The notes under the pieces were generated by a model, which worked only from the letters and a program-made list of their open reading frames with translations, did no database searches and was not told the DNA's origin. From the NCBI RefSeq assembly GCF_026210795.1, contig NC_089431.1, positions 3,720,001-3,784,000 of the forward strand: DNA of 64,000 bases, in the 5' to 3' direction. Position numbers and translations under genes: made by a program. Shown here in pieces: positions 8,516-55,611 of this stretch (its first letter is position 1; every line of letters starts with the position of its first letter). This DNA comes from Rhizophagus irregularis (taxonomy: Eukaryota > Glomeromycota > Glomeromycetes > Glomerales > Glomeraceae).

Positions 8516-9721
8516 TGGGTTGGGCCTTTCATTCAATGAAATTGGTTTTGGGTTGGTCCTCCATTCATCAATGTGACCTAATGAAACGGGCTTTCTATTA
8601 TCCCATGAAAAGGTTGAGTTTTCAATCTTAAAAGTAAATTAACAAAAATAAGTAATTCATTCATAATTTTAAATTAAACAAAAATGTTATTATACCTTTC
8701 TTTCATCATCAATAGTTGTAGAAGTTGGTGTCCCTTCTTTAGCTATACGGGGCTTTGATTTATGATTGACCTTGCTATCAGGATGTAAATTTAAAAAGTT
8801 TCTTAATAAATCCGTAAATAATTCCTCTGGTAGAATTTCCTTATAAGGTAGAATATTATCTGAAAATTCTTTAGAAGTTAAATTATAGAATCGTATAAAA
8901 GGAATACATTGTTGTAAAGTATTTTTTAAAGAATTAAAATCATCTTTTGAATAATTAGAGGGATCTGAAGAAAGCTCAGGATTTTGTGCAAGACCCCATT
9001 TAAGAACATTCTCCCATACTTTAATTTCATTCATTTTAAGATCATCAATTTGAATAAGTGAGATCAAAATTTTTTCTGGAATTGAAAAGAAATCTAATGA
9101 CTTGAATATCTTATCTGGGTTTTTGGACATTAAATCAGTACAAAACTTTTGAAGCTCCAAGAAAGAATCATTTTCAAAACTTGTTTGATATACCAAACTA
9201 AAATTTTGTTCCATCCAGTCTGCTTTGTAATTAATCAAAAAAGATTGTGTATAGATAACCAGTTCCTGAAGGTTCATTTCACTAGCAGCGACCATGATTT
9301 TAATGATATCTAAATTATCATAATTTTTCAAAGATGGTTCTCCGCCATAAATATACCTAAAAAAAAAATTAATAATCATTTATGATTAAAAAAAGTATAA
9401 ATCCAATATATTTATAAACGCATAAATAATAAAATTTGTTAAATTTATTTTATTATTTTTTTACCTTAAAATTATTTGAAAAATTTCAGGTGAAATATTT
9501 GGTAATTTAATTTGTACCAAAGTCCCATCATTTTTCTTTTTATTAGTTGACAAAATTCTTCGCAAATAAGAAGAACGATAATTTAAAATGACTATATGTG
9601 AACGAAATATTTTTACGTAAGGATCATTTCCAACTTCAATAGTAATATCACAATATTCGTCATCATCTAAAATATCGAGTAAATTTTGTGATAATTTTTG
9701 TAATAATTTATTATCATCCAT
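8120..9721 (-). CDS. BTB-BACK protein with Ser/Trp-rich repeat tail
   Basis: Model: exons 9465..9721, 8696..9356 and 8120..8626, 474 codons in one frame. The BTB domain spans exon 1 and the start of exon 2 (RYIYGGEPS at about residue 86). A BACK-like helical region follows (KVWENVLKWGLAQNPELSS near 200). Exon 2 also ends in-frame with a stop just after a GTATAA donor (8695). I prefer splicing over 69 nt to an AG at 8628-8627, because phase is kept and the third exon is open for 169 codons. That exon encodes about five imperfect units of an SSSW-KVAKS-type sequence with Lys, Pro and Asn. Unit starts differ by 102, 99 and 111 nt, which keeps frame; only the last spacing (88 nt) shifts it, where the frame changes to that of 7927-8148. 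An unspliced 306-residue form is the alternative. BACK with BTB suggests a Cullin-3 adaptor; the tail has no known function. Confidence 0.75.
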
Positions 9722-10820: not shown

Positions 10821-12844
10821 CTAATCGGCATCTTTTACCATAATATCACACCAGACTTTGGATCCAAATTGATTGTCCGTACCGTCTGACAATTTCCAGT
10901 ATCTGTAAAAAGTTAAAAATAATATTAATATAAGCTTATGAATTATTGGTCCATTAGCTAATATTATTTTATTATAAGCGTCTAACACCCCTAAAATATT
11001 AGCTAGTATATGGTACTGCCCTTAGAAAATAGTTAATATTATACTGACGAAACGTGTTTTCCATGGTCAGAAGGCGCTTGGAGAGCAACAGAGATATCCA
11101 CACTTTTACCAACTTCAACAGATCCAATGCGGATTCTTGGCGTTATATTGAACTCGAACATACGATCTCCGTCAATGCAACGTAGTACTGTTTCATCAGG
11201 CCACTAACGTTTAAAAAATATCAAATATTAATTGATATAAATGTAATTAAATTAGAAAGTTACATCTACTTACAGGGAAACGGCCGTTATTAGACAGTTT
11301 CCAGGTCTTTTCAAATTTAGCCTGTGGTGCGAGAATTGTTCCATCTTGTATGTTTACATCTTCAATAAATTGCGAATCAAATAACTTCGGAGCTGTTAGT
11401 TGTTTAAGAAAAAAATTAATAAGCTTAATGTCGAATGCTTCATAAATTTCAAATAACATAAATCAAACTTAACTAATATCTTGTTTAAACTAAGAATTTT
11501 CAAAGTGAAAAAAAAAATAGAATTAATTCAAATATTATTGCAACATAATTTCTTGTATTTGTTGATAAATTTACCTTTTTAAACATAATTTCAAATAAAA
11601 ATAAAAAAGAATAAATAAAATAATAAGCAATTTATAATTTCATAATTTAATGTAAAATAATTTCTCAATAAAATTTAAATTATATCGTTACCCCTCTTCC
11701 TCTTATATGGTTGAGTTCGTTAGGTTTATTAGAAGATGCTTTCTCTTCGTTACAATTTTGATTCTTAGGTAATAGTTGTATCCGAGTAGATAAAGGATCA
11801 GTTACTTCTTTAACCTTATTTATATTTTGTTCCTGAGAATTGACTTTAAAAGTTGAAGGTCCTGAATAACATGGCGTGGAAGGAGACGGAAGAGAGAAAG
11901 TGACAGTTTTTTTAGTCATACACGGTTTTGATTTATGATTTAGTCTGCTATCAGGATGTAAATTTAAAAAGCCTTTTAATAGATTCATATATAACTCGTC
12001 TGGTAGGATTTCTTTGTAAGGTACTATATTATCCCAAAATTCTTTAGAAGTTAACCTATCAATCTTAATAAAAGGAATGAGTTGTTGCAAAGTATTTTTT
12101 AATATATTGAAATCATCTTTTGAAAAGGTTGAAGGATCAGTAGGAAGTTCAGGATTTTGCGCAAGACCCCATTTAAGAACATTTTTCCATACTTGAATTT
12201 CACTCATTTGAAGATTATTACTTTGAACAAGTGAGATCACAAGTTTTTCCGGAGCTGAAGAAGGATCAAGTAACTCAAATATTTTATCTGGAATTCTGGA
12301 TATTAAATCATTGCAATACTCTTGAAGTTCCAAGAACGGTCCATGTTCAAAACTTGTTTTATATATCAAATTAAAATTTTGTTCCATCCAGTTGGCTTTG
12401 GTTTCAATCAAAAAGGTTTGTAAATAGGCGATCAATTCATGAAGATTCAATTCGCCGGCGGCAACCAAGATTTTAACAATATCTGAAGTATCGTAATCTT
12501 CAAAAGATAGTTTCCCTCCATAAATATATCTAATAAAAATAAAAATCATTCACGATTAAAAAAAAAAATCGATATATTTTTAAAACGTTAAATTTATCTT
12601 ACTTTAAAATTATTTTAAAGATTCCAGGTAAAATATTTGGTAATTTAATATGTACCAAGTTTTCATCACTTTTCTTTTTATTTTTTGACAAAATTCTTCG
12701 TAAAGAAGTAGAACGATAATTCAATATAACCATGTGAGCACGGAACATCTCATCACCAACTTCAATAACAATATCGTAATATTCTTCATCATCCAATATT
12801 CTAAGAAAATTTTGCGATAATCCTTGCATAAATACATCATCCAT
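10821..12844 (-). CDS. BTB-BACK protein fused to an NBR1-type FW domain
   Basis: Model: exons 12603..12844, 11692..12529, 11474..11489, 11274..11392, 11049..11203 and 10821..10902, giving 483 residues in one frame. BTB is at about 15-115 and a BACK-like region follows (EIQVWKNVLKWGLAQNPEL). A polar linker to about 360 ends GRG at a GTAACG donor; reading through would stop 3 codons later. A 16-nt microexon joins to an FW domain (about 374-483), the Ig-like domain of NBR1. Its four signature tryptophans are W396, W406, W459 and W474, in FEKTWKLSNNG, WPDET, YWKLSDG and SKVWCDIMV. FW domains bind protein partners in selective autophagy. BTB-BACK proteins usually tether targets to Cullin-3, so a substrate adaptor is a reasonable inference. 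The FW exons are sound; joining them to the BTB exons rests on the microexon, which uses a GTTAAG donor. Otherwise these are two adjacent genes or a pseudogene remnant. Confidence 0.7.
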
Positions 12845-28327: not shown

Positions 28328-31300
28328 ATGGCAACTGAATTTAGTAAATCAAACATCTCAGATAAACATACTAAAACAATAAACACCAAAAATTGTTCGT
28401 ATTGCAATAAACCTTTTGCTGAAAAATCATGGTGTAAAGAATGTATTAATTCTTTAGAAAATTTAGTAGAAAATGGCGATAAAGAAGCAATGCTTAATTT
28501 AGCTGACTGTTATAAAAATGGAGAAGGAACAGAAAAGAACTTAGAAAAAGCCTTTCATTGGTATCAGAAAGCAGCAGAAAAAGACCATGTTAAAGCAATG
28601 TATCATTTAGCTGGTTGTTATTATTTTGGAAAAGGAATAGAAAAGAACTTAGAAAAAGCCTTTCATTGGTATCAGAGGGCAGCAGAAAAAGACTATGTTA
28701 CAGCAATGAATAATTTAGCCAAATGTTATAGAAATGGAGAAGGGACAGAAAAGAATTTAGAAAAATCCTTTCATTGGTATCAGAAAGCAGCAGAAAAAGA
28801 TCATGTTACAGCAATGTATAATTTAGCCATATGTTTTGATAATGGAAAAGGAATAGAAAAGAACTTAGAAAAAGCCTTTCATTGGTATCAGAAAGCAGCA
28901 GTAAATGATAATAAAGAAGCAATTTATAATTTAGCCAAATGTTATAGAAATGGAGAAGGTACAGAAAAGAATTTAGAAAAAGCCTTTCATTGGTATCAGA
29001 AAGCAGCAGAAAAAGACTATGTTACAGCAATGTATAATTTAGCTATATGTTATGATAATGGAAAAGGAATAGAAAAAAACTTAGAAAAAGCCTTTCATTG
29101 GTATCAAAAAGCAGCAGAAAAAGACCACGTTACAGCAATGTATAATTTAGCCAGTTGTTATTATTCTGGAGAAGGGACAGAAAAGAACTTAGAAAAAGCC
29201 TTTCATTGGTATCAGAAAGCGGCAGAAAAAGACCATGTTAAAGCAATGTATAATTTAGCTATATGTTATAAAAATGGAAAAGGAACTGAAAAGAATTTGG
29301 AAAAAGCCTTTTATTGGTATCAAAAAGTAGCAGAAAGTGGTATTAAAGAAGCAATGTTTAATTTGGCCTATAATTATAAAAATGGAGAAGGGACAGAAAA
29401 GAACTTAGAAAAAGCCTTTCATTGGTATCAGAAAGCAGCAGAAAAAGACCATGTTAAAGCAATGTATAATTTAGCCATATGTTATGAAAATGGAGAGGGA
29501 ACAGAAAAAAATTTAGAAAAAGCCTTTCATTGGTATCAGAAGGCAGCAGAAAATGGTAATAAAGAAGCAATGTTTAATTTGGCCTATAATTATAAAAATG
29601 AAGAAGGGACAGAAAAGAATTTAGAAAAAGCCTTTCATTGGTATCAGAAAGCAGCAGAAAAAGCTCATATTACAGCAATGTATAATTTAGCTATATGTTA
29701 TGATAATGGAAAAGGAATAGAAAAGAACTTAGAAAAAGCCTTTCATTGGTATCAGAAAGCAGTAGAAAATGGTAATAAAGAAGCAATGTATAATTTAGCC
29801 ATATGTTATAGAAATGGAGAAGGTACAGAAAAGAATTTAGAAAAAGCCTTTCATTGGTATCAGAAAGCAGTAGAAAATGGTAATAAAGAAGCAATGTATA
29901 ATTTGGCCAAATGTCATAGAAATGGAGAAGGGACAGAAAAGAACTTAGAAAAAGCCTTTCATTGGTATCAGAAAGCAGCAGAAAAAGACTTTGTTACAGC
30001 AATGTATAATTTAGCTATATGTTATGATAATGGAAAAGGAATAGAAAAGAACTTAGAAAAAGCCTTTCATTGGTATCAGAAAGCAGCAGAAAAAGACCAT
30101 ATTACAGCAATGTATAATTTAGCCAGTTGTTATTATTCTGGAGAAGGGACGGAAAAGAACTTAGAAAAAGCCTTTCATTGGTATCAGAAAGCAGTAGAAA
30201 ATGGTAATAAAGAAGCAATGTATAATATAGCAATATGTTATAAAAATGGAAAAGGAACTGAAAAGAATTTAGAAAAAGCTTTTCATTGGTTTCAAAAAGC
30301 AGCAGAAAATGGTGATGTAAAAGCAATGAATAATTTAGCCGCATGTTGTGAAAATGGAGAAGGAACAGAAAAAAATTCAAAAGAAGCATTTTATTGGCAT
30401 CAAAAAGTACTAGAAGAAAGTAATAAAGCAAGTTCTAAAGATAAAGTTGAATTATGTAATAAATGCAAAAAACCACATATTGATTACCCATGCCATCAAT
30501 GTAATGAATGTAAACAACCATACATTGATTACCAGTGGTGCCAACAATGTAACGTTAAACGATTTCAACAAGATTTTACAAAGTGGACTAGTGAAAATGT
30601 ATTTATTGATAAATTTATTCAAGAGATACAACTAAATGCTAAAAATAGTCATGAAATTTTAGAGTGGATACCTTATGATAAATTGTCAAGTATTAATTAT
30701 CATGATAAAGGAGGATTTAGTGAAATTCATAAAGCTATCTGGTCAGATGGACCCATTTTTAGTTGGAATAATGATAAACAACAATGGAATAGACAGATGA
30801 ATCATGAAGTCATTCTTAAAATACTTAATAATTCATCAAATTTGAATAGTAAATTTCTTGATGAGGTATAGTATTTGATTTAATAATAAATTTTAGATTC
30901 TTTTATAAAAATTTAATAACTTCTTATTATTTATAGTGGAAATATCATTATAACTGTCAGAAAATGTCATTTTCAAAATTTATTCAATTCTTTGGTTTTA
31001 CCCAAGATCCGAATAATTTAAATCATATTATAGTAATGAGTTATGCAAAAAAAGGAAATTTGAGAAAATGTTTATCTGATATAATTAAATTTAAGTGGCA
31101 AGACAAGTTACAATTATTGAAAAAAATTATATTAGGACTTAAAGTAATTCATGAGTCAAATTTAACTCATGGTGATTTTCATGATGGTAATATTTTAATG
31201 TCAGATAATGAGTCATTTGTTATAGATTTAGGATTATATAAACCTGTGAGTGATTTGCAAGATTCTGACAATAGCGAAGTTAATGAAATTTATGGAGTTT

Positions 31301-33637: not shown

Positions 33638-35852
33638 ATGGATGGGGATAAATTTTTACCAAAATTATCACAAAATTTACTCAAAATTTTGGACGATGAA
33701 GAATATTATGATATTACAATTGAAGTTGGCAATGACCCTTACGTAAAAATATTCCGTGCTCATATGGTAATTCTAAACTATCGTTCTACTTATTTACAAA
33801 GGATTTTATCAACAAGTAGAAATAATAACAATGGAACTTTGGTACATATTAAATTACCAAATATCTCACCCGAAATTTTTCAAATAATTTTGAGGTAAAT
33901 TATACAATAAATAAGATGTTACTGTATTTACAAATATATATATATACATATATTGTTTTAATTTATATATAATGTTTTATTTCAGATTTATTTATGGAGG
34001 AAGACTTTCTTTGGAGGAATGTGATTCTTTGGGTATTATTAAGATCTTGACTGCTGCTAATGAACTTAATCTTCAAGAATTAGTTAATCATTTACAACTT
34101 TATATAATTAAAAATAATAAAAATTGGATGGACCAAAATTTTGATCTCATATATCAGACAAGCTTTGAAAATCATTCTTTTTTGGAACTTCAAAAATATT
34201 GTACTGACTTTATTTCAAGAAGACCTGATAAGATACTTAAATCAATTAGTTTCTCTTCAATTTCAGAAAAACTTTTAGTTTCAATTATTAAAAGTAATAA
34301 TCTTCATATGAGCGAAATTCAAGTTTGGAAATATGTAATTAAATGGGGACTTGCTCAGAATCCCGAACTTCCTTCTGATCCTGCAACTTTTTCAAAAGAA
34401 GATTTTAATGTATTAAAAAGTACTTTACAACAACTCATTCCTTTTTTTGAGTTTACTAAATTAACTCCTAAAGAATTTTCTGAAGAAGTATTACCTTATA
34501 AGAAAGTTTTACCAAAGGAATTATACAAGGATTTATTGAACATTTTTTTAAATTCACATCCTGATAGCAGACCAAATGATAAATTAAAAATTCAAAATAT
34601 TGATTCAAAAATTATTACATCTCAACATGCTGAATTAATTTCAAAATGGATAGATAAATTAGATATTATGGATAAGTCGACTTCTTTGTACGAATTCAAA
34701 TTAATTCTTCGTGGATCTCGTGATGGATTTGAATCTAAAATATTTCATGAGATTTGTGATGATCGATCTTGCACTATAACAATTATTAAAGTTAAAGGAA
34801 ATAACCAAATTCTTGGAGGATATAATCCAATTGAATGGAAATCTGATCGTAATTATTGTGCTACTAAAGATAGTTTTATATTCTCTTTTAAGAATGGAAT
34901 TAATATTAATGAACATATTTTAAGTCGTGTTACGAATGAAAATTATGCTATATTTAACGATCATACTTATGGACCATCATTTGGTGGTTCTGATCTTATT
35001 TTGCGGGGGAATAGTGAACAATCTGGACATTGTATCAAAGATAGTTATGAAAAACAAATCAGAGGACCTCCTTCAGGTATAATTAATTAGTGCCTTTATT
35101 TGTAAATAACTAATAATATTTTTATATAATCTCTTTATAATTTTTATAGAATCTGTCTTGCATTATGATGTAAGATGTGACTGCTGTGACTATACTATCC
35201 GTGGAATGAGATGGAAGTGCACATCCTGTGAAAATTATGATTTATGTCAAAATTGTAAAGCCAAATCACACATTCATAATCACCCAGATGATCATATGTT
35301 CGAACTTGTGCCACATTCAAAATCTTCTAAACGTGCTCCTCGTACGTATTATTATATCTTTTTTTAATATATTGTTCTATAATACTAATTTTTTTTATAA
35401 TAATTTATGACCTCTTTTTAATATCTTGTAGAATTTGCTTTGCATTTTGGCGTAGTGTGTGATTTCTGTAAAAGTAAAGTTCGTGGAATGAGATGGAAAT
35501 GTGCATTTTGTTATAATTATGATTTATGTAAAGATTGTAAACTAAAATCTCAAAATATTCATGATCATCCAAATAATCATGCGTTTAAACCTATTGCATA
35601 TCCCACTGGTATGTTACTGTCAAATATTTTGAATTGTAGCATTAAATTATACAAATTATAAAATAATATTTATTAATTTCATTTTCATCATCATTATAAT
35701 ATGAATTAGGTGGATTAAGACATTTGTCGCTAAAAAATCCTGCAATTTGTGACTATTGTGAGTTAGCCTGCATCGGTAGCAGATGTTTTAAGTGTGCCAA
35801 TGGCGAATTTTTTTTAGAAGAGTACGAAATATTTCAAATTATAAAATATTAA
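33638..35852 (+). CDS. BTB-BACK-TLDc protein with ZZ zinc fingers
   Basis: Five exons: 33638..33894, 33986..35076, 35150..35341, 35432..35608 and 35710..35852. All introns are GT-AG; the sum is 1860 nt, 619 residues, one frame. Order: BTB (about 20-120; YDITIEVGNDPYVKIFRAHM), BACK (to about 240; EIQVWKYVIKWGLAQNPELP), TLDc (about 283-440; FKLILRGSRDGF, GGYNPIEW, SFIFSF, YGPSFGG), then two full ZZ fingers, each in its own exon (C-x2-C...RWKC-x2-C-x4-DLC-x2-C...H...H), and a third half finger (CDYC...CFKCANGEFF). The single-exon reading that ends GIIN at 35090 is the unspliced form. TLDc proteins act in oxidative-stress resistance and bind the V-ATPase; BTB-BACK suggests Cullin-3 adaptor use; ZZ fingers bind peptides or N-termini. 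The combined role is inference. Confidence 0.85.
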
Positions 35853-47386: not shown

Positions 47387-47802
47387 ACAATGGTCAGCAT
47401 AGCGGACATGCTTATATCACCATGCCGATCATTTTGCTGATCATATATATTTTTCAAACTTCAATAAACAATATCTCGAAATTCAGTCATCCAATTTTGA
47501 TAAAGTTGTGCTCATTGGATTCGCCTCATCGAGACGAGTCAAATGGTGGTATTTTCATTAATTTTGGATCACTAGATGCCAAGATATTCACGATTTTGTA
47601 TTTCTATTATGAATTATCACATTATATAAAATCGGCCGATCTGGCTTGGCTACACCGATATACATTCGGCCGGGCTATAAAAATTGATAAATTTAAGTTT
47701 TTTAACGATATAGAATAAAATAATAAACCTTTTTCATTACTAAAATTGATATTTATTAATTTTATATATAAATTTTTAGTATTTAATTAGGAAATTTACT
47801 AT

Positions 47803-48137
47803 TTTTAGACTTTAAAACTTTGTACAAAGCCACAGACTTTTAAGCCAACTCTGAAATTTTCATCATATATTTGTTAACCATTTAGAAATATATGGTGAAA
47901 AAATGGCATCCTAATTCGCTTGAAACCAAAAGTTACCTATATACTATATTTAGTCAATTTTAATAAATTTGCAATTTTTAGACTTCAAAGTTTTGTACAA
48001 AGCCACAGACTTTTAAGCCAACTTTGAAATTTTCATTATATATTTGTTAACCATTTAGAAATATATGGTAAAAAAATGGCATCCTAATTCGCTTGAAACC
48101 AAAACTTACTTATATGTTATATTTAGTCAATTTTAAG
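47803..48137 (+). repeat. Tandem duplication, unit about 173 bp
   Basis: Two adjacent copies starting TTTTAGACTT with GTACAAAGCCACAGACTTTT, AACCATTTAGAAATATATGG and GGCATCCTAATTCGCTTGAA in each. They lie between the left terminal repeat and the transposase ATG, so they may be promoter or transposase-binding DNA. Confidence 0.85.
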
Positions 48138-48374
48138 TAATATATGATTATTTGATTTTAAAACTTTATATATTTTCTAAAATTTATTTTTGTTTACTAT
48201 TTTAAAAATATAAGATAAAATTAATTATTTTAAAAGTTTTCTATGTGTTATATTTAATCAGTTTTTTTATAAATAGACAAAAAAATTGCTTTAGCAAAAT
48301 TAGAAAATCCAATCCAATTTAAAATAAAAAAACAATATTTTTTTAAATACTTTCATAATTTTTAATTATAAAAA

Positions 48375-51300
48375 ATGGATAACACTTCTACTTTTTCAAA
48401 TATTTGCAATTTTGATTCCATTGAATGTAATGGAAGAATAAAGCCAATCACTTATAACACTAAAATACCAAAATCTACTGAATTAATTATTTCAGTTGGA
48501 ATGTATTTATGCCAAATACATTACAATCAATTTATTTTAAATGAAACTAGAAATATTAATTATAATAAGAGTTGTGAGCATCCAAAACATGATGAATATA
48601 AAAATCAATCAAAAAATACAAAAAAAAAATCAAGCAAACTTAATCTTAAAAAGGTTCCAAAAAGATTAATTGAAGTTTTAGAATTAAATGAATCTTCAGA
48701 AATTTGTAGTATGTGTAGAAATAAAACTGATAAAGATTCTGAATATTTACAAAATGAAAAATACAAAGCACCTATTCCAATTAAAAAAAACAATTTAAAT
48801 GATAATGATAATTTACAAGATGAATCAATAGAAACTATACAAGATGAACTAATAGAGGCTATACAAGATGAATCAATAGAAGTTATACAAAATGAATCAA
48901 TAGAAGTTATACAAAATGAATCAATAGAAACTAAACAAATAAAAACTTGTCAACATCCAAAACATGATGAATACTTAAATCAATCAAAAAATACAAGCAA
49001 ACAATTTAGTCTTCAAAAAGTTCCAACAAGATTAATTAAAGTATTAGAATTAGATGAACTTGCAATGATTTGCAGTATGTGTAAAAAAAAAACTGATAAA
49101 GATTCTCAATATTTACAAACTGAAGAATATAAAGCACCAATTTCTAGAAAAAATAATAATGACAATATATCAAAAATAGGAAATCATACTTATTTATTTA
49201 GAAAAGATATCTTATATACTGGAGAAGAATTACAACAATTTGAATCAGATTATCAAGAAATTATGACACAATTAAAAATTTTAAGTGAAATTAAATTAAG
49301 TAGTAAAATAATAAAAATGTCTAATATTCTTTATAATAATCAACATAGATTAAATCTTAAACCTATTTATGATCCAATAGCTTTTAAAACTATGTTAGAA
49401 ACAGCTGATAAAGATTTAATTGGATTTTTTGATGAATTATATGCTGGAACTAATCCTAATACTAAATCTGAAACAACAAATAATAACAACAAAAAAAAAT
49501 TAGTTTCTTTATGTTATTTTTTAGCTAGCATTAATAATAAATATATTAATGGAATTAAAGTTGATATTGGATCATACTTGGAAACTTCTGGAGCTTCTTC
49601 TTCTTCTATTGATACATTGGCAAATATAGGAGTTTCAGTAACAAGAAAAACAGTAAATCGTAAAAAAAATTTTATTTCAAATGAACACCAACAAACTGTA
49701 GATAATTATTGTTTACAAAATATAGAAAATATGTTTATTCTTAATATAGATGATTACCATAATATTCATAGGCGTAATCAACCAACATTGTTACAAACTC
49801 ACAATATTTATCATTTTGTAACAATATTATTGAATACAAATACTAAAATTCCAAAAATACCATTTTATTCATTAAATAATTTTTCAATACATAATCCTAA
49901 AGGAATTGATTCTGGATTAATTATTAATAACATTAAAAATAATTTTATGAATCAATTAGGTAAAAGTTATTATATGCAAAAAGAATTATGGAAAAATTTT
50001 TTAATTGAAGATTCTTATGAAAATAGAGTTGAACTACTTAATATTCATAATTATGATGGTAGAATTCAAAATTACCATGAATTAAGATCAATGTCTAATA
50101 GCAAATTAGTAGACTTTATTTTGCATCCTTTACATAGTACTAAGGATTATATTGAATGTTTAGATTATGTATTTAAAGCATTTGAAAGATTAGAAAATAT
50201 TGAAGAAAATTATTTAAATAATTTTATCATTCCTGTAATTGCTGATTGGCCAGGACAAGTAAATATAAGAAGAGCTATAACACTTAGAATTAAGAAAGGC
50301 ATTAATTCTGGAGTTCCAGAGCAAGTGTTAAATTTAATTCCTATGATAGGTCCACTTCATGTCTCTTTAAACAGCAGAGAAATACTATTTCAAACATATC
50401 ATTTCTTTTTTGAGATGCTATATCATAACTTATTTGGAGATAAAAAAATATTATCTCAAAAACCAAAACAAACAGTAATCAATCTTATTTTACATTTAAC
50501 TTATCATGGATGGAAAAATATTCGTGATATTGTTACAAAAAGATTTGGAAATTTAAAAGATGCAGAATATCAAATGATGATAGATTTATTAGATAATTCT
50601 ATTCCACTTACTTTGGATATATATGCAATACTTTTTAGAAGTGGATTTTTTGAAGGATATTTAGAAAGTACTGTAAAAATTTGGATATTATTTCAAAGAT
50701 TGAGAAGACATAATTATAATAAAGCACCACTTATGTTTTTAAGTGATGTATTTTATTGGACTTCAAAAAATCATCCAATAATTAATATTTTAAAAAATAA
50801 TTTACCAATTTTTAATGATTATTTTGTTGAAAATTTTCATAGCTCTTTAAGGCATCAAACAGCAGAATCAAATTCAGAGTTACAAATTATACAAAAAGCA
50901 AAAATTATTGATGCTGAAAGAAATAATAATCCTTTTAAAAATTCTTTTGTTAATTTGAGAAATCCAGCTAAGTCTCAAATTAAAGAATTAAAATCTTTAG
51001 AAAAAAAGGTTTCATTATTTTTATTCTCAATATTTGATAAGATTCATCAGAATATAGGAAATACAAAACAAATTAATAATGATAGATATCCAAAATTTTA
51101 TCTTCCAAGTTTTGATATTGAAGTGGATGTAAAGGTACTTCCTTTAGGCTGGAATACACAAAAAATACCAGCAGATGATAAATTTTGTGATGCAAATAAT
51201 TGTTTATTATCAAATAGTATAGATTTATCTAATGGAATTGTTTTACTTTGTGGACACAGTTTTCATAAAGAATGTTTAAGTACTTTATATGATGATAAAT

Positions 51301-51539
51301 GTAATTTTTGTTTTGATTATTTATCATCTGGAATTGAGAAAAATATTAAGAGTTTGGATCAAAGATTGTCGACATCATTAAAAGAAAATGAAATCCCTTT
51401 ATTTGAAAAGGAAAATAATAATGATGATGAAAATGATGAAGAAGAGAATATTGAAAACATATTAGAAAGAACAGAATGTGATGTAGAAAATCAATATGAT
51501 ATAATGTATCAACAATGGTTAAATTATAATGATATATAA
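48375..51539 (+). CDS. Putative transposase of the 47396-51948 element, 1054 aa, with RING-like C-terminus
   Basis: One intronless frame, ATG at 48375. The N-terminus has Cys/His groups (C11, C18, C46, H49). Then come two copies of a module, CEHPKHDEY...KVPKRLIEVLEL...CSMC (67-134 and 192-255), separated by five DESIExIQ-like units (149-187). The central region has candidate acidic residues for an RNase H-type core: FILNIDDYHNIH (D459/D460), VIADWPGQ (D624) and YFVENFHSSLRHQT (E819). This assignment is a guess from spacing and local hydrophobic strands. MIGPLHVSLN (657-666) and DAEYQMMIDLLDNSIP (729-744) are striking motifs. The C-terminus carries a RING-H2-like pattern (C938, C943, C959, H961, H964, C967, C976, C979) and an acidic tail. 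Its position between matched terminal repeats argues it is the transposase. I cannot place it in a named superfamily. Confidence 0.8.
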   Translation: MDNTSTFSNICNFDSIECNGRIKPITYNTKIPKSTELIISVGMYLCQIHYNQFILNETRNINYNKSCEHPKHDEYKNQSKNTKKKSSKLNLKKVPKRLIEVLELNESSEICSMCRNKTDKDSEYLQNEKYKAPIPIKKNNLNDNDNLQDESIETIQDELIEAIQDESIEVIQNESIEVIQNESIETKQIKTCQHPKHDEYLNQSKNTSKQFSLQKVPTRLIKVLELDELAMICSMCKKKTDKDSQYLQTEEYKAPISRKNNNDNISKIGNHTYLFRKDILYTGEELQQFESDYQEIMTQLKILSEIKLSSKIIKMSNILYNNQHRLNLKPIYDPIAFKTMLETADKDLIGFFDELYAGTNPNTKSETTNNNNKKKLVSLCYFLASINNKYINGIKVDIGSYLETSGASSSSIDTLANIGVSVTRKTVNRKKNFISNEHQQTVDNYCLQNIENMFILNIDDYHNIHRRNQPTLLQTHNIYHFVTILLNTNTKIPKIPFYSLNNFSIHNPKGIDSGLIINNIKNNFMNQLGKSYYMQKELWKNFLIEDSYENRVELLNIHNYDGRIQNYHELRSMSNSKLVDFILHPLHSTKDYIECLDYVFKAFERLENIEENYLNNFIIPVIADWPGQVNIRRAITLRIKKGINSGVPEQVLNLIPMIGPLHVSLNSREILFQTYHFFFEMLYHNLFGDKKILSQKPKQTVINLILHLTYHGWKNIRDIVTKRFGNLKDAEYQMMIDLLDNSIPLTLDIYAILFRSGFFEGYLESTVKIWILFQRLRRHNYNKAPLMFLSDVFYWTSKNHPIINILKNNLPIFNDYFVENFHSSLRHQTAESNSELQIIQKAKIIDAERNNNPFKNSFVNLRNPAKSQIKELKSLEKKVSLFLFSIFDKIHQNIGNTKQINNDRYPKFYLPSFDIEVDVKVLPLGWNTQKIPADDKFCDANNCLLSNSIDLSNGIVLLCGHSFHKECLSTLYDDKCNFCFDYLSSGIEKNIKSLDQRLSTSLKENEIPLFEKENNNDDENDEEENIENILERTECDVENQYDIMYQQWLNYNDI

Positions 51540-51957
51540 TTAGTATTAATATAATAATTTTTATTAAATTGCAAAAGTCACTTTATTGAAATTTTTTAAT
51601 AATAAAAATTAATATTTTATTTTGATTAATGAAAATTAATGAATTATAATTGTATAATTACTCCAACTAATAAGATAAATTATATAATAAAATAATTAGA
51701 AGATTCCGAATGCAAATATCTCAAGATATATAACTCCAAATTTTGTAAAATAAAGATGATCGGATTCATCAAGTCCTAAGCTTTCTAACAAGCTAAAAAT
51801 CATAAAATTCTGATCACTGGATGCTGAGATAACTGAGATTAACTTTAAAAAAAATCTAATATTAAATGTGATATGATAAAATAGTGATCAACAAATGATC
51901 GGCAAATGATCGGCAAAATTGTGATAAAATAGGGATGTCCGCTATGCTACAATGGTC

Positions 51958-53406
51958 TTAGTATTTATATACAGTTTGTAACTATTACAATATTACACGT
52001 TTATTAATAACAAGAAAAAATCTTTAATAAAGATAAGGCGATATAAAGTTAAAAAATTGGTTCTCATATCAAAATTTGCTTCAATTTAACCCGGCCGCAC
52101 GGCCTTTTATTTTTTTTTTTAGAATAAAATTTTTTTTCATCCGATCATGTAATACGGAAAATTTCATATGTAACGTTTATATTAATATAACAATTCAATA
52201 AAAAGTCAGACAAATTTTATATATCAAGTTAATTACAAGTTTATTTCTCATGTTTAATTGTAGTTTTTTTAAAAAAATTTTTTTTATTGTTCGTTAAATG
52301 TTAGGCATTTACATAGCAGATAGTATTACGATATATCAGATATGCGTACAAATTTAATTTATCATGTGATATAGTTTAGAGCAATTTAATTGGTTAACAA
52401 AAAAAAAAAAAAAATTTAAGATTCCCGCTCTGGTGACCCGGCCGGGATATGAGAACCAATTTTTTAACTTTATGTCGCCTAATAAAAACTTCTCAGCAGA
52501 TTAAAAAATGGTAATATACATTTAAAAGTACCAACCAAAGAAGACTGATACAAATCATCTAACAATAAAGTGAAAAAAATGCCTAATAGTCATAAAAAAA
52601 AGGTATTTTAAAAAAATATTTGAAACTTTGTAATATATTATTAAGTGCCAAACTGGTTAAGATACTATATTAATTTTGAATTATATACTATTTGATGTTT
52701 TGCTTATTTTCTTAACATCTATCATGTCTAAAAATTTGAAACTACTACTTTTAGATTCATCTTGGAGGGGTAATTTTAATGGGCTGCATATTGTCTTTCT
52801 GATCTTTCTATGATTATGGAACTGAACTGGCTCATTCTATTTGATATGTCTCAAGTCAGTCCATTCAATAATATCAATCCAGAACTGAAATAGACTGGGT
52901 GAATCGTTTTCCATTCCAAGTTCAGGAAGGAATGACTACAGTTTTTTCCGCACTTTTTGATAATTCTTCATATTTTTTGAGTGACTGCAATTTTTTACAT
53001 TTTCACACTAAACTGAAAATTGATTGGTTGATTAATGATAATATGATTCATTTTTTACTTTATATTAATTTCAGCCCAAATTTAGCGAATTTAAAGTAAA
53101 ATTAATAATTTTAGAAGTATTAAAGAAAACAAACAAATAAGGCGCATGAAAATGACAAAGCCATAATTCACATAAATTATAGCATTTCTTGCAAGATTCA
53201 TTAATGTAATTGTTTAATATGTTAATTGCAATCATTTCTTTAATTTACGTAACTTAAATTAGTTGATATCAAATACATTGAACTATATCGAAATTTTGGG
53301 CTTTCTTTATTCTAGATAACCAAAAAAATTTTTTATTACATTTTTTAAAATTCTCAAGCAAAATAAGTATATATTTGTCATCATTGCATAATGATAAAAA
53401 GCGATA
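51958..53406. other. Intergenic with one long-TIR element
   Basis: It holds the element at 52034-52482. The ORF at 52899-53099 shows no family features. Confidence 0.4.
52034..52482. mobile_element. TIR element, about 35-bp ends
   Basis: Left TAAGGCGATATAAAGTTAAA then AAATTGGTTCTCATATC; right inverted TTAGGCGACATAAAGTTAAA then AAATTGGTTCTCATATC. CCCGGCCG blocks lie inside both ends. Flanks AATAAAGA and AATAAAAA agree at 7 of 8. Non-coding. Confidence 0.78.
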
Positions 53407-55611
53407 TTAACAAAAGTCCTCGTTTACTTTAGCCACATTATACCAATACTTAGCCAATTCAATATTTTCTTCAGTTCCTTCACCATCTAAATATAAAATT
53501 GCAAGCTTTCTTTGTGCTTCAACATTTCCTCCTTCTGCAGCTATTTTATATAAGTCAAATGCTTTCTCTTTATTAACATCATATTGAATTCCATTACTAT
53601 AAAAATATCCAAGCTTATAATAAGCATCTATAAATCCTTGGTTGGCTGATTTTTCATAAAATTCAATTGCTCGCATTACATTTTTACAAATGCCTTTTCC
53701 TAATTCATGATATTCTCCTAATTTATACAATGCAAGTTTATTGTCATTTTCTGCAGATTTATGATACCAATAATTAACTTTACCCAAATAATCATCTATT
53801 TCATCCTCATTTTTACATAAAATATTTTCAACATTACTACTTTTACCAGTTGCCTCATTATATAATTCAAATCCTTTTTCTTTATTAATTTCAGTTCCAA
53901 TTCCATTTACATAGTAATATCCAAGTATAAAATTTGCTTCTAAATATCCATTTTTAGCTGATTTTTTATAATATTCAAATGCTTTACTTTCATCCTTCTT
54001 TACACCAAGTCCTAATTCATAGTATTCTCCCAAATTATATTGTGCTACTTCATCTCCATTATCTGCAGCTATTTTGAATAGCTCAAATGCTTTTGTTTTA
54101 TCTACTTTAGTTCCAAATCCCTGGTCATAACAATATCCAAGTTGAAATTGACCATCTAAATAACCTTGATCAGATGATTTTTTAAAATATTCAAAAGATT
54201 TGATTTCATCCTTATCAACTCCAAATCCATATTTATAGCATTCTCCAAGATTATATTGTGCTACTTTATTACCATTATTTGCTGCTTTATTATACCAATA
54301 AAATGCTTGTTTATTATCTTTTTTCGTACCTTTACCATACTCAAATAGTGATCCTAAATTATTTTGTGCAATATCATGCTCTTTTTCTGCTGCTATTTTA
54401 TACATTTCAAATGCTTTTGTTCTATTAATTTTAGTTCCAATTCCTTGGTCATAACATTTTCCAAGTTGAAATTGTGCATCTTCAAATTCTTGTTCAGCTG
54501 ATTTTTTATATAATTTAAAAGCTTTAATTTCATCTTTTTTTACTCCTTTTCCATTTTCATAACATTTACCTAAATTATATTGTGCAAATTTATTTCCATT
54601 TTCTACTGCTTTTTTATACCAATAAATGGATTCTTCTAAATCTTTTTTTACTCCAATTTCATTTTGATAACAATTACCTAATATATTTTGTGCTTGTGAA
54701 TATTCTTTAGCAGAGTTAAAATACCATTCAAAAGCTTTCTTATCATCTTTATTAATTCCTATTCCATTTTGGTAACAAATACCTAAATTATATTGTGCAT
54801 ATATATCTCCTTTACCAGCAGCTTTTAAATACCATTCAAACGCTTTTTTTTCATTTTTTTCTATTCCAATTCCATTTTGATAACAATAACCTAAATTATT
54901 CTGTGCATTTAAATTTTCTTCTTCTGCTGATTTCAGATAAAATTCAAATGCTTTTAATTCATCTTTCTTTCTTTCTATTCCATATTGACCATATTGATAA
55001 CAATAATAATTAAGCTTATTTAATTTTACTAACTCTTTCTTATTAAATATAATAGAACTTTTATCTAATAATTCAAAATATTTTTCCATAGTATTCAATT
55101 CATCTTTGCATAAATTTATTTTTAATCCATTAAAATATTCGAACTGATAATAAGACATTACATGTGCATATTCCAAAGTTTTAAATTCCTTTGAAATTGA
55201 ATATTTATTATATAAAATATCCTTATAATAATAGAATGATAATAAATATTTTGAAATAATGATATTAAGTAATTGATACATGGAAGTTAATTTTTTATCT
55301 TCATTTTATTCATATTTATTAATTGATAATAAATATAAATCAAAAGATTTATTTTTATCAATGGTATTATGTACTATACCAAATTCATAAAAAAATCCTA
55401 TCAAACTTGAAAACCAATTTTCATTTTCTTCCATTAATTTTAAAATTATTTCAGGATTTTTTTCATTATCAATTAGAAATTCTTGTATCCATTCTGATAA
55501 AATATTTTTATATTTAGTATAATTCTCCAAATTTATAATTTGACGGTAAAAATCTTTTAAAAAATTTTTTAAGAAATTCTCATCATCTTTTGTAATGTTA
55601 TTTGAAGACAT
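53407..55611 (-). pseudogene. Sel1-repeat protein gene with one in-frame stop
   Basis: A single frame runs from ATG 55611 (MSSNNITKDDENFLKNFLKD) to 53407, interrupted only by TAA at 55306-55308 between ...SINKYE and NEDKKLTS. Both sides fit together: an N-terminal helical domain (EWIQEFLIDNEKNPEIILKL), then about 14 diverged Sel1 repeats (KAFEFYLKSAEEENLNAQNN, LGYCYQNGIGIEKN and so on) to the C-terminus; no kinase follows. The stop may be a real inactivation, a base error or, less likely, readthrough. There is no plausible GT-AG intron that removes it. If read separately, the downstream frame from 55281 still encodes all repeats (624 residues). Confidence 0.75.

Follow-up and report, generated by a model that had tools for sequence, protein, structure and literature searches.

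A recently multiplied DNA transposon of Rhizophagus irregularis and its probable DDE transposase with a C-terminal RING-H2-type finger

The element and its close copies

The stretch of DNA analyzed here (the window) comprises 64,000 nucleotides of the Rhizophagus irregularis genome (contig NC_089431.1, positions 3,720,001 to 3,784,000, labeled C3 below). Direct reading of the sequence delimits within it an element of 4553 bp, at 47396–51948, with one open gene inside (Table 1). An initial annotation, made from the sequence alone, had called it an intact DNA transposon on the basis of fourteen identical terminal bases, a longer imperfect inverted repeat with GATCAT units, an exact 9-bp target duplication and an undamaged gene frame. 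Each of these features is borne out: the terminal inverted repeat (TIR) is perfect over 14 bp and continues imperfectly to 27 nt at 81% identity, GATCAT units occur in both subterminal regions, the target site duplication (TSD) is exact, the frame runs without a stop through 1054 amino acids (aa), and copies with the same ends exist elsewhere in the genome.

The genome searched comprises 146.7 Mb in 32 contigs. The terminal 14-mer occurs in it 173 times exactly (86 forward, 87 reverse) and its reversed control not once; counted by hand, 35 convergent pairs account for 70 of the first 100 places listed. At least 15 copies of the element, including that of the window, were recognized, a lower bound since 40 of 405 candidates were scored. 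Fourteen match the whole 385-bp 5' end, and the remaining one, L004, matches from base 12. The other 14 copies are 99.34–99.93% identical to the window element and near-identical copies are spread over many contigs. The four closest (L001, L002, L003 and L005) differ from it by only 3–5 substitutions each over 4.5 kb, in agreement with the young insertion that had been proposed. The full 1054-aa frame is present in three of the 15 (window, L001, L002). Copies with other boundaries, which according to the annotation would speak against a transposon, were not encountered: in 14/15 copies both ends lie within one mismatch of the 14-mer, and L004 is 5'-truncated, lacking the first 11 bases.

Exact TSDs flank 12 of the 15 close copies, L004 not being judgeable. 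The length of the duplication was then compared over 50 insertions with two recognizable TIRs, including diverged relatives. When the TIRs are taken as fixed boundaries, the flanking sequences match over exactly 9 bp in 46/50, over 5 bp in one, and over 6, 7, 8 or 10–14 bp in none. Eight of these sites (L026, L051, L053, L056, L058, L059, L062 and L063) came from a scan that required a 9-bp duplication, so their TSD length is no independent evidence, although their TIRs are; without them, the duplication is exact in 38/42. L020 and L021 each had two candidate end pairs, of which the better was used. Loci with an end or flank missing or unrecognized were not counted (L004, L019, L024, L025, L027, L028, L052, L054, L055, L057, L060, L061 and L064–L066), and L029, L030 and the short fragments L067–L086 were also left out. 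The best scan match for L057, with four mismatches and other termini, was dropped as chance. The 47 exact duplications, L030 included, are all different, have 31% GC and show no strong consensus.

A genome search with the flanks of the window element also found a paralogous empty site on contig C31, where a single ACAATAGTT stands in place of element and duplication, with 76% identity across the junction (98/129 columns). The two flanks together score 112, the left alone 47, the right alone 68, and the best of 200 shuffles 59. The check for empty sites thus yielded one diverged paralogous site; among the collected loci there was none, the only matches being three self-matches. The end sequences, the 9-bp stagger signature, the insertion into a formerly continuous site and the recent multiplication are direct observations.

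Table 1. Positions of the element's features in the window
Feature	Position	Strand	Basis or remark
Left TSD ACAATGGTC, 9 bp	47387..47395	.	sequence read and flank comparison
Left TIR AGCATAGCGGACAT, 14 bp perfect	47396..47409	+	imperfect repeat on to about 47422
Left subterminal TGCCGATCAT / TGCTGATCAT units, candidate transposase-binding repeats	47423..47444	+	
Tandem duplication (2 × 173 nt, 92% alike) within the element's 5' non-coding sequence	47787..48132	.	
Single open frame, probable 1054-aa transposase, no stop	48375..51539	+	full-length also in L001, L002
N-terminal C-x6-C-x27-C-x2-H cluster (C11, C18, C46, H49), putative zinc finger	48405..48521	+	invariant in 3 subfamilies
Duplicated Cys/His-rich module, 209 nt, 75% alike, 24-nt repeats between	48586..49160	+	
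Predicted RNase H-like DDE catalytic core with helical insertion, residues 391–859	49545..50951	+	model and structural matches
D459-D460, strand beta1 (NIDDYHNIH), candidate first catalytic Asp	49749..49754	+	16/16 rows each
D624 after strand beta4 (ADWPGQ), candidate second catalytic Asp	50244..50246	+	18/19 rows
E819, helix after insertion (VENFHSSLR), candidate catalytic Glu	50829..50831	+	19/20 rows
C-terminal RING-H2-type zinc finger	51186..51311	+	C938, C943, C959, H961, H964, C967, C976, C979
Right subterminal TTGCCGATCAT-type units, GATC spaced 11 bp	51884..51916	-	
Right TIR, exact complement of the left 14 bp	51935..51948	-	sequence read
Right TSD, exact copy of ACAATGGTC	51949..51957	.	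sequence read and flank comparison

Diverged relatives and elements without a transposase gene

Searches of the genome for diverged members revealed further clades, at about 35–75% protein identity. There are at least three clades in all, that of the window element included; their divergence is ancient, their TSDs measure 9 bp and their ends are mostly of the AGCAT type. Clade A relatives (L015–L028) share roughly 55–80% identity with the window protein over matched segments. In clade B the identity is about 40%, the elements measure 3.2 kb and end in sequences such as AGCATAGGGAAAGT or AGCATAACGGAATT, and the genes appear to have introns, judging from shared in-frame stops and frame changes. 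Clade C, in which L065 is counted although its clade is uncertain, has the ends AGCATAGTTAAA and AGCATAGGTAAA. Since L016, L017 and L026 begin with AACAGGGCGG, the AGCAT start is common but not universal.

Outside this genome, one relative was found. The 4276-bp environmental contig VBAS01000141.1 (L100; 24% GC), titled as a Bacteroidetes metagenome-assembled genome, carries a full-length related element with exact AACAGGGCGGACAT ends; its open frame has 930 codons and is 92% identical to L016. The contig is probably mis-binned eukaryotic, fungal DNA. Of the 80 pattern matches obtained from the bacterial and archaeal collection it is the sole relative, and none turned up in viral contigs.

The same ends also bound short elements without the gene. 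Among the listed pairs of 14-mer ends, 21 lie 608–628 bp apart, of which 20 were fetched (the last, C15:3672392, was left out). These miniature inverted-repeat transposable elements (MITEs) of about 620 bp have exact 14-bp ends in 20/20 cases and an exact 9-bp TSD in 18/20. In L032, the one MITE examined closely, the similarity to the element's two ends extends over 62 and 47 bp, at 90–92% identity, with no long match in the interior. Thirteen of the other 19 are 94.7–99.8% identical to L032 and six only 61–73%, so that there are several sequence subfamilies. Two longer loci, L029 (C2:3935274-3939928, 4.7 kb) and L030 (C1:6825539-6832177, 6.6 kb), have the element's ends but no transposase and were rejected as autonomous elements, as neither contains a 150-aa frame or any sequence significantly similar to the transposase. 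A MITE interrupted by an insert of about 4 kb accounts for L029, and the flanks of this locus are one mismatch off a TSD. L030 has the exact 9-bp TSD AGTATAGTA, and a broken fragment inside it is taken, from residues read by eye, for a hAT remnant.

These relatives also bear on a very different explanation, namely that the open frame is a domesticated transposase or a host gene family that happens to have repeats on either side. A few copies keep an intact frame, and the ratio of nonsynonymous to synonymous substitution rates among three subfamilies is 0.37–0.45 (NG86 method), which indicates purifying selection in these three. Against this, the gene usually comes with the same ends and 9-bp TSDs, in 12/15 close copies, 9/14 loci of clade A, 5/9 of clade B and 2/7 of clade C, where several loci have short flanks. 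Moreover, an empty site exists and near-identical copies occur on many contigs. For the window copy, TIR, TSD and empty site refute the host-gene explanation, and overall this alternative has very little probability.

Directly to the right of the element lies a second dispersed repeat (about 52033–52483). In the search with the flanks of the window element, its end of about 70 bp, on the CCGGCCGCACGG side, recurred in the genome and has in several places an inverted partner about 400 bp off, for example at about 52446–52483 of the window; the repeat looks like another MITE family. Elsewhere in the window, the large open frames at 28328–30871, 53407–55281, 8690–9379, 11680–12549 and 33972–35090 look, by eye, like Sel1-repeat and BTB/Kelch-type proteins, gene classes reported as expanded in R. 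irregularis in a passage of PMC8647823.

The encoded protein and its predicted fold

The N-terminal Cys/His cluster of the 1054-aa protein has no Pfam match. The duplication of the Cys/His-rich module is present in the window's subfamily and absent from L015 and L016, and may reflect a recent change in the part that putatively binds DNA. At the other extremity, residues 938–979 form a C3H2C3 pattern with RING spacing, whose eight ligands are invariant in the 14–15 alignment rows that cover them. In profile comparisons with the PDB, this stretch is matched best by RING E3 ligases, with E values of 0.089 and above, and two weak zf-BED matches (best E 0.036) also fall within it.

Two checks had been proposed for the protein, profile searches and structure prediction, and their outcomes differ: no profile hit to a transposase family was obtained, while the predicted structure has a DDE (Asp-Asp-Glu)/RNase H fold. 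From a 51-row alignment of the window protein and locus fragments, AlphaFold2 modeled residues 300–1005 with a predicted local distance difference test (pLDDT) score of 82.3 and a predicted template modeling score of 0.78. VIA-align was run with this model on Foldseek's top 1000 chains. DDE transposases or recombinases fill the first 43 of the 50 rows shown, and the rows below them have Z ≤4.9. The best match among the rows shown is Hermes (Z 10.7, root-mean-square deviation (rmsd) 7.0, 296 residues aligned), followed by the P element (Z 10.3, rmsd 5.8, 354 aligned) and ISCth4 (Z 9.5, rmsd 4.7, 260 aligned), which has the lowest rmsd of the ten best rows; RAG1 (8.4), Transib (7.4) and Metnase (6.0) also appear. 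The fold predicted for the protein is of the DDE/RNase H type, as in hAT, P, ISCth4 and RAG/Transib enzymes.

The conserved candidate residues of the model, D459/D460 on beta1, D624 after beta4, H662 in GPLH after beta5 (18/18 rows) and E819 in the helix following the insertion, are placed as in insertion-bearing DDE enzymes and fit an RNase H-like core with a helical insertion. The row counts given here and in Table 1 omit rows with few aligned neighbors, and several rows are fragments of one locus.

Placement among DDE transposases

The initial annotation saw no signature of Tc1/mariner, hAT, PIF, piggyBac, MULE or KDZ transposases. The complete Pfam listings of 21 family members contain no transposase domain, and no NCBIfam model matches the window protein. 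KDZ, Tc1/mariner, PIF/Harbinger and piggyBac domains are absent from these Pfam listings, which were run without positive controls for these groups. Zisupton (KDZ) has a TSD of 8 bp, and Tc1/mariner, PIF/Harbinger and piggyBac have characteristic TSDs of their own; that of the window family is 9 bp. Controls from the same genome exist for other groups, with at least 150 Pfam matches to MULE (PF10551; 150 of 407 candidates scored), at least 150 to hAT (PF05699; 150 of 836 scored) and 24 to P-like proteins (PF21787); none of the matches listed, compared by eye, falls on the studied copies. DUF6589, a first guess from motifs, had no genome match, but the control had none either and the search was uninformative. 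Sub-threshold matches to HEPN_RiboL-PSP in L055 (E 0.0011) and to MHC_II_beta in L019 and L023 (E 0.008) were taken as chance.

The element may belong to the MULE/MuDR (IS256-like) superfamily as a very divergent branch rather than stand apart from it, a placement that is unlikely but has several points in its favor. ISCth4, an IS256-type element, is a strong structural match. According to passages of PMC6446971, MULE TSDs measure 8–11 bp, a range that includes the 9 bp found here, and in the MULE group Ghost a second open reading frame (ORF) encodes a RING finger; Repbase, as a passage of PMC4455052 states, merged weakly similar groups such as Rehavkus into MuDR. On the other side, PF10551 matches none of the 21 members despite its frequency elsewhere in the genome, hhalign with four MULE proteins of the same genome gives 0.1% in a shallow test, and in the structural comparison Hermes ranks above ISCth4 and the P element ties with it.

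Membership in the P-element or hAT group, as a divergent lineage, is less likely still. It would accord with Hermes and the P-element transposase being the best structural matches, with a weak hhalign signal to P-like proteins at model residues 179–337 (0.5%), and with the N-terminal C2CH cluster. In L057, the spacing of this cluster, counted by hand, is C-x2-C-x39-C-x2-H, which resembles THAP. P elements, however, usually make 8-bp TSDs, and none of the 50 insertions fits 8. The same holds for hAT, whose TSD is usually 8 bp and rarely 5–7 in the account given in a part of PMC12730594; the 9-bp duplication therefore argues against both groups. In addition, neither PF21787 nor PF05699, both matched elsewhere in this genome, has a listed match on the studied copies, and the Pfam listings show no THAP or hAT domain, the THAP search having no control. 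The hhalign value for the hAT C-terminal set is 0.1%, but since that set holds C-terminal frames only, it is no test of the hAT core. Clades A and C, compared in the same way, reach 100%.

Taken together, the observations make it probable that the element is an autonomous, recently mobile DDE cut-and-paste transposon, that it belongs to a young family of a superfamily-level lineage of which no description was found, and that the 1054-aa protein is its transposase. With less assurance, the balance tips towards an undescribed superfamily that is active in arbuscular mycorrhizal fungi, or was so until very recently. It would be marked by ends of the AGCATAG type, a TSD of 9 bp, the subterminal TTGCCGATCAT repeats observed in the window's clade and a DDE transposase joined to an E3-like RING-H2 domain, whose RING, as in RAG1, would couple transposition to ubiquitin signaling. 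In the open-licence literature, which does not include Repbase, no description of such a superfamily was found, and passages of two papers on R. irregularis transposons (PMC11075540, PMC8647823) name no such family; copies may stand in published R. irregularis repeat libraries under another label.

Several points weigh against this interpretation. Novelty at the superfamily level is tentative, being judged against Pfam, NCBIfam, PDB and same-genome sets. HMMER filters drop most matches above E 0.1, which makes the E limit of 10 nominal. The hhalign sets are shallow (3–5 sequences), and because MULE, P and hAT miss each other too (0.0–0.2%), their negative result excludes only close kinship. 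The structural link consists of VIA-align Z values of 6–11 at high rmsd; for values below 8, or below about 13 where the arrangement is helical, the similarity may be no more than a shared arrangement. Foldseek gave no match below E 0.001 in PDB or BFVD (the highest-ranking viral entry was a hAT protein of a Pandoravirus, with E 0.1), and a first AlphaFold2 model from a 3-row alignment was useless (pLDDT 29.6). Pfam matches to RING stay below the cut-offs, and a RING beside a transposase is not unique, given the separate RING ORF of Ghost reported in a passage of PMC6446971. L002 and L014 have both ends intact but flanks without a matching TSD, the flanks of L100 form no 9-bp TSD, and the empty site is diverged, with most of its signal from the right flank.

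In the mechanism proposed for such an element, the N-terminal zinc clusters would bind the subterminal TTGCCGATCAT repeats, 11–12 bp apart, at both ends. The RNase H-like core, predicted in its fold and conserved at D459/D460, D624 and E819, would then cut at the AGCATAG ends. Lying between the second Asp and the Glu, the helical insertion points to chemistry of the hAT/RAG/Transib kind, with hairpins on the flanks. The excised element would join a target cut with a 9-bp stagger, the 9-bp duplication itself being observed. For the C-terminal RING-H2 finger, a role in transposase turnover or host repair is probable, as an E3 ligase or a protein-contact module. The 1054-aa protein would serve as transposase for the MITEs as well as for the element, and probably moves those of about 620 bp that share its ends.

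If confirmed, these results would add a superfamily-level branch to the DDE transposases and help to name repeats in a genome with a large unclassified part. Unclassified repeats make up 32% of the R. irregularis genome, 24% without gene families, by figures in a section of PMC8647823, and after subsequent curation 36% of the genome was classified, up from 12%, as reported in a portion of PMC11075540. The window family is young and may be active, and its fixed RING tail would allow one to test whether a transposase uses ubiquitin signaling, in parallel to RAG1.

Compared with known systems, the window family resembles MULE/MuDR and IS256 in the length class of its TSD, in the predicted fold (ISCth4) and in its RING finger, a RING ORF being reported in the one MULE group Ghost. 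It differs from MULE/MuDR in its short TIRs, in the fusion of the RING to the transposase and in the absence of MULE and SWIM matches from the Pfam listings. Where MULE/MuDR transposases usually have a C/D-x2-H motif, the window protein has GPLH. Like hAT (Hermes), it has TIRs and MITEs and a predicted RNase H-like core in which a large helical insertion precedes the catalytic Glu, whereas the 9-bp rather than 8-bp TSD, the missing match to the hAT dimerization domain, the AGCATAG ends and the C-terminal RING-H2 set it apart.

P elements have an N-terminal C2CH-type cluster and short TIRs with subterminal repeats, and the window element and its protein are similar in all these respects and in the predicted core fold (Z 10.3 over 354 residues); they are unlike the P element in the 9-bp TSD, the lack of a THAP or TNP-like domain match and the RING tail. 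RAG1 also bears a RING finger, on its N-terminal side. From the Transib/RAG1 group (CMCT, as defined in a part of PMC12730594) the window family departs in its TSD (9 versus 2–5 bp), in termini that are not CA..TG, and in lacking the C(2)C motif, the window protein having no Cys between D624 and E819. Its predicted fold is nevertheless like that of RAG1 and Transib.

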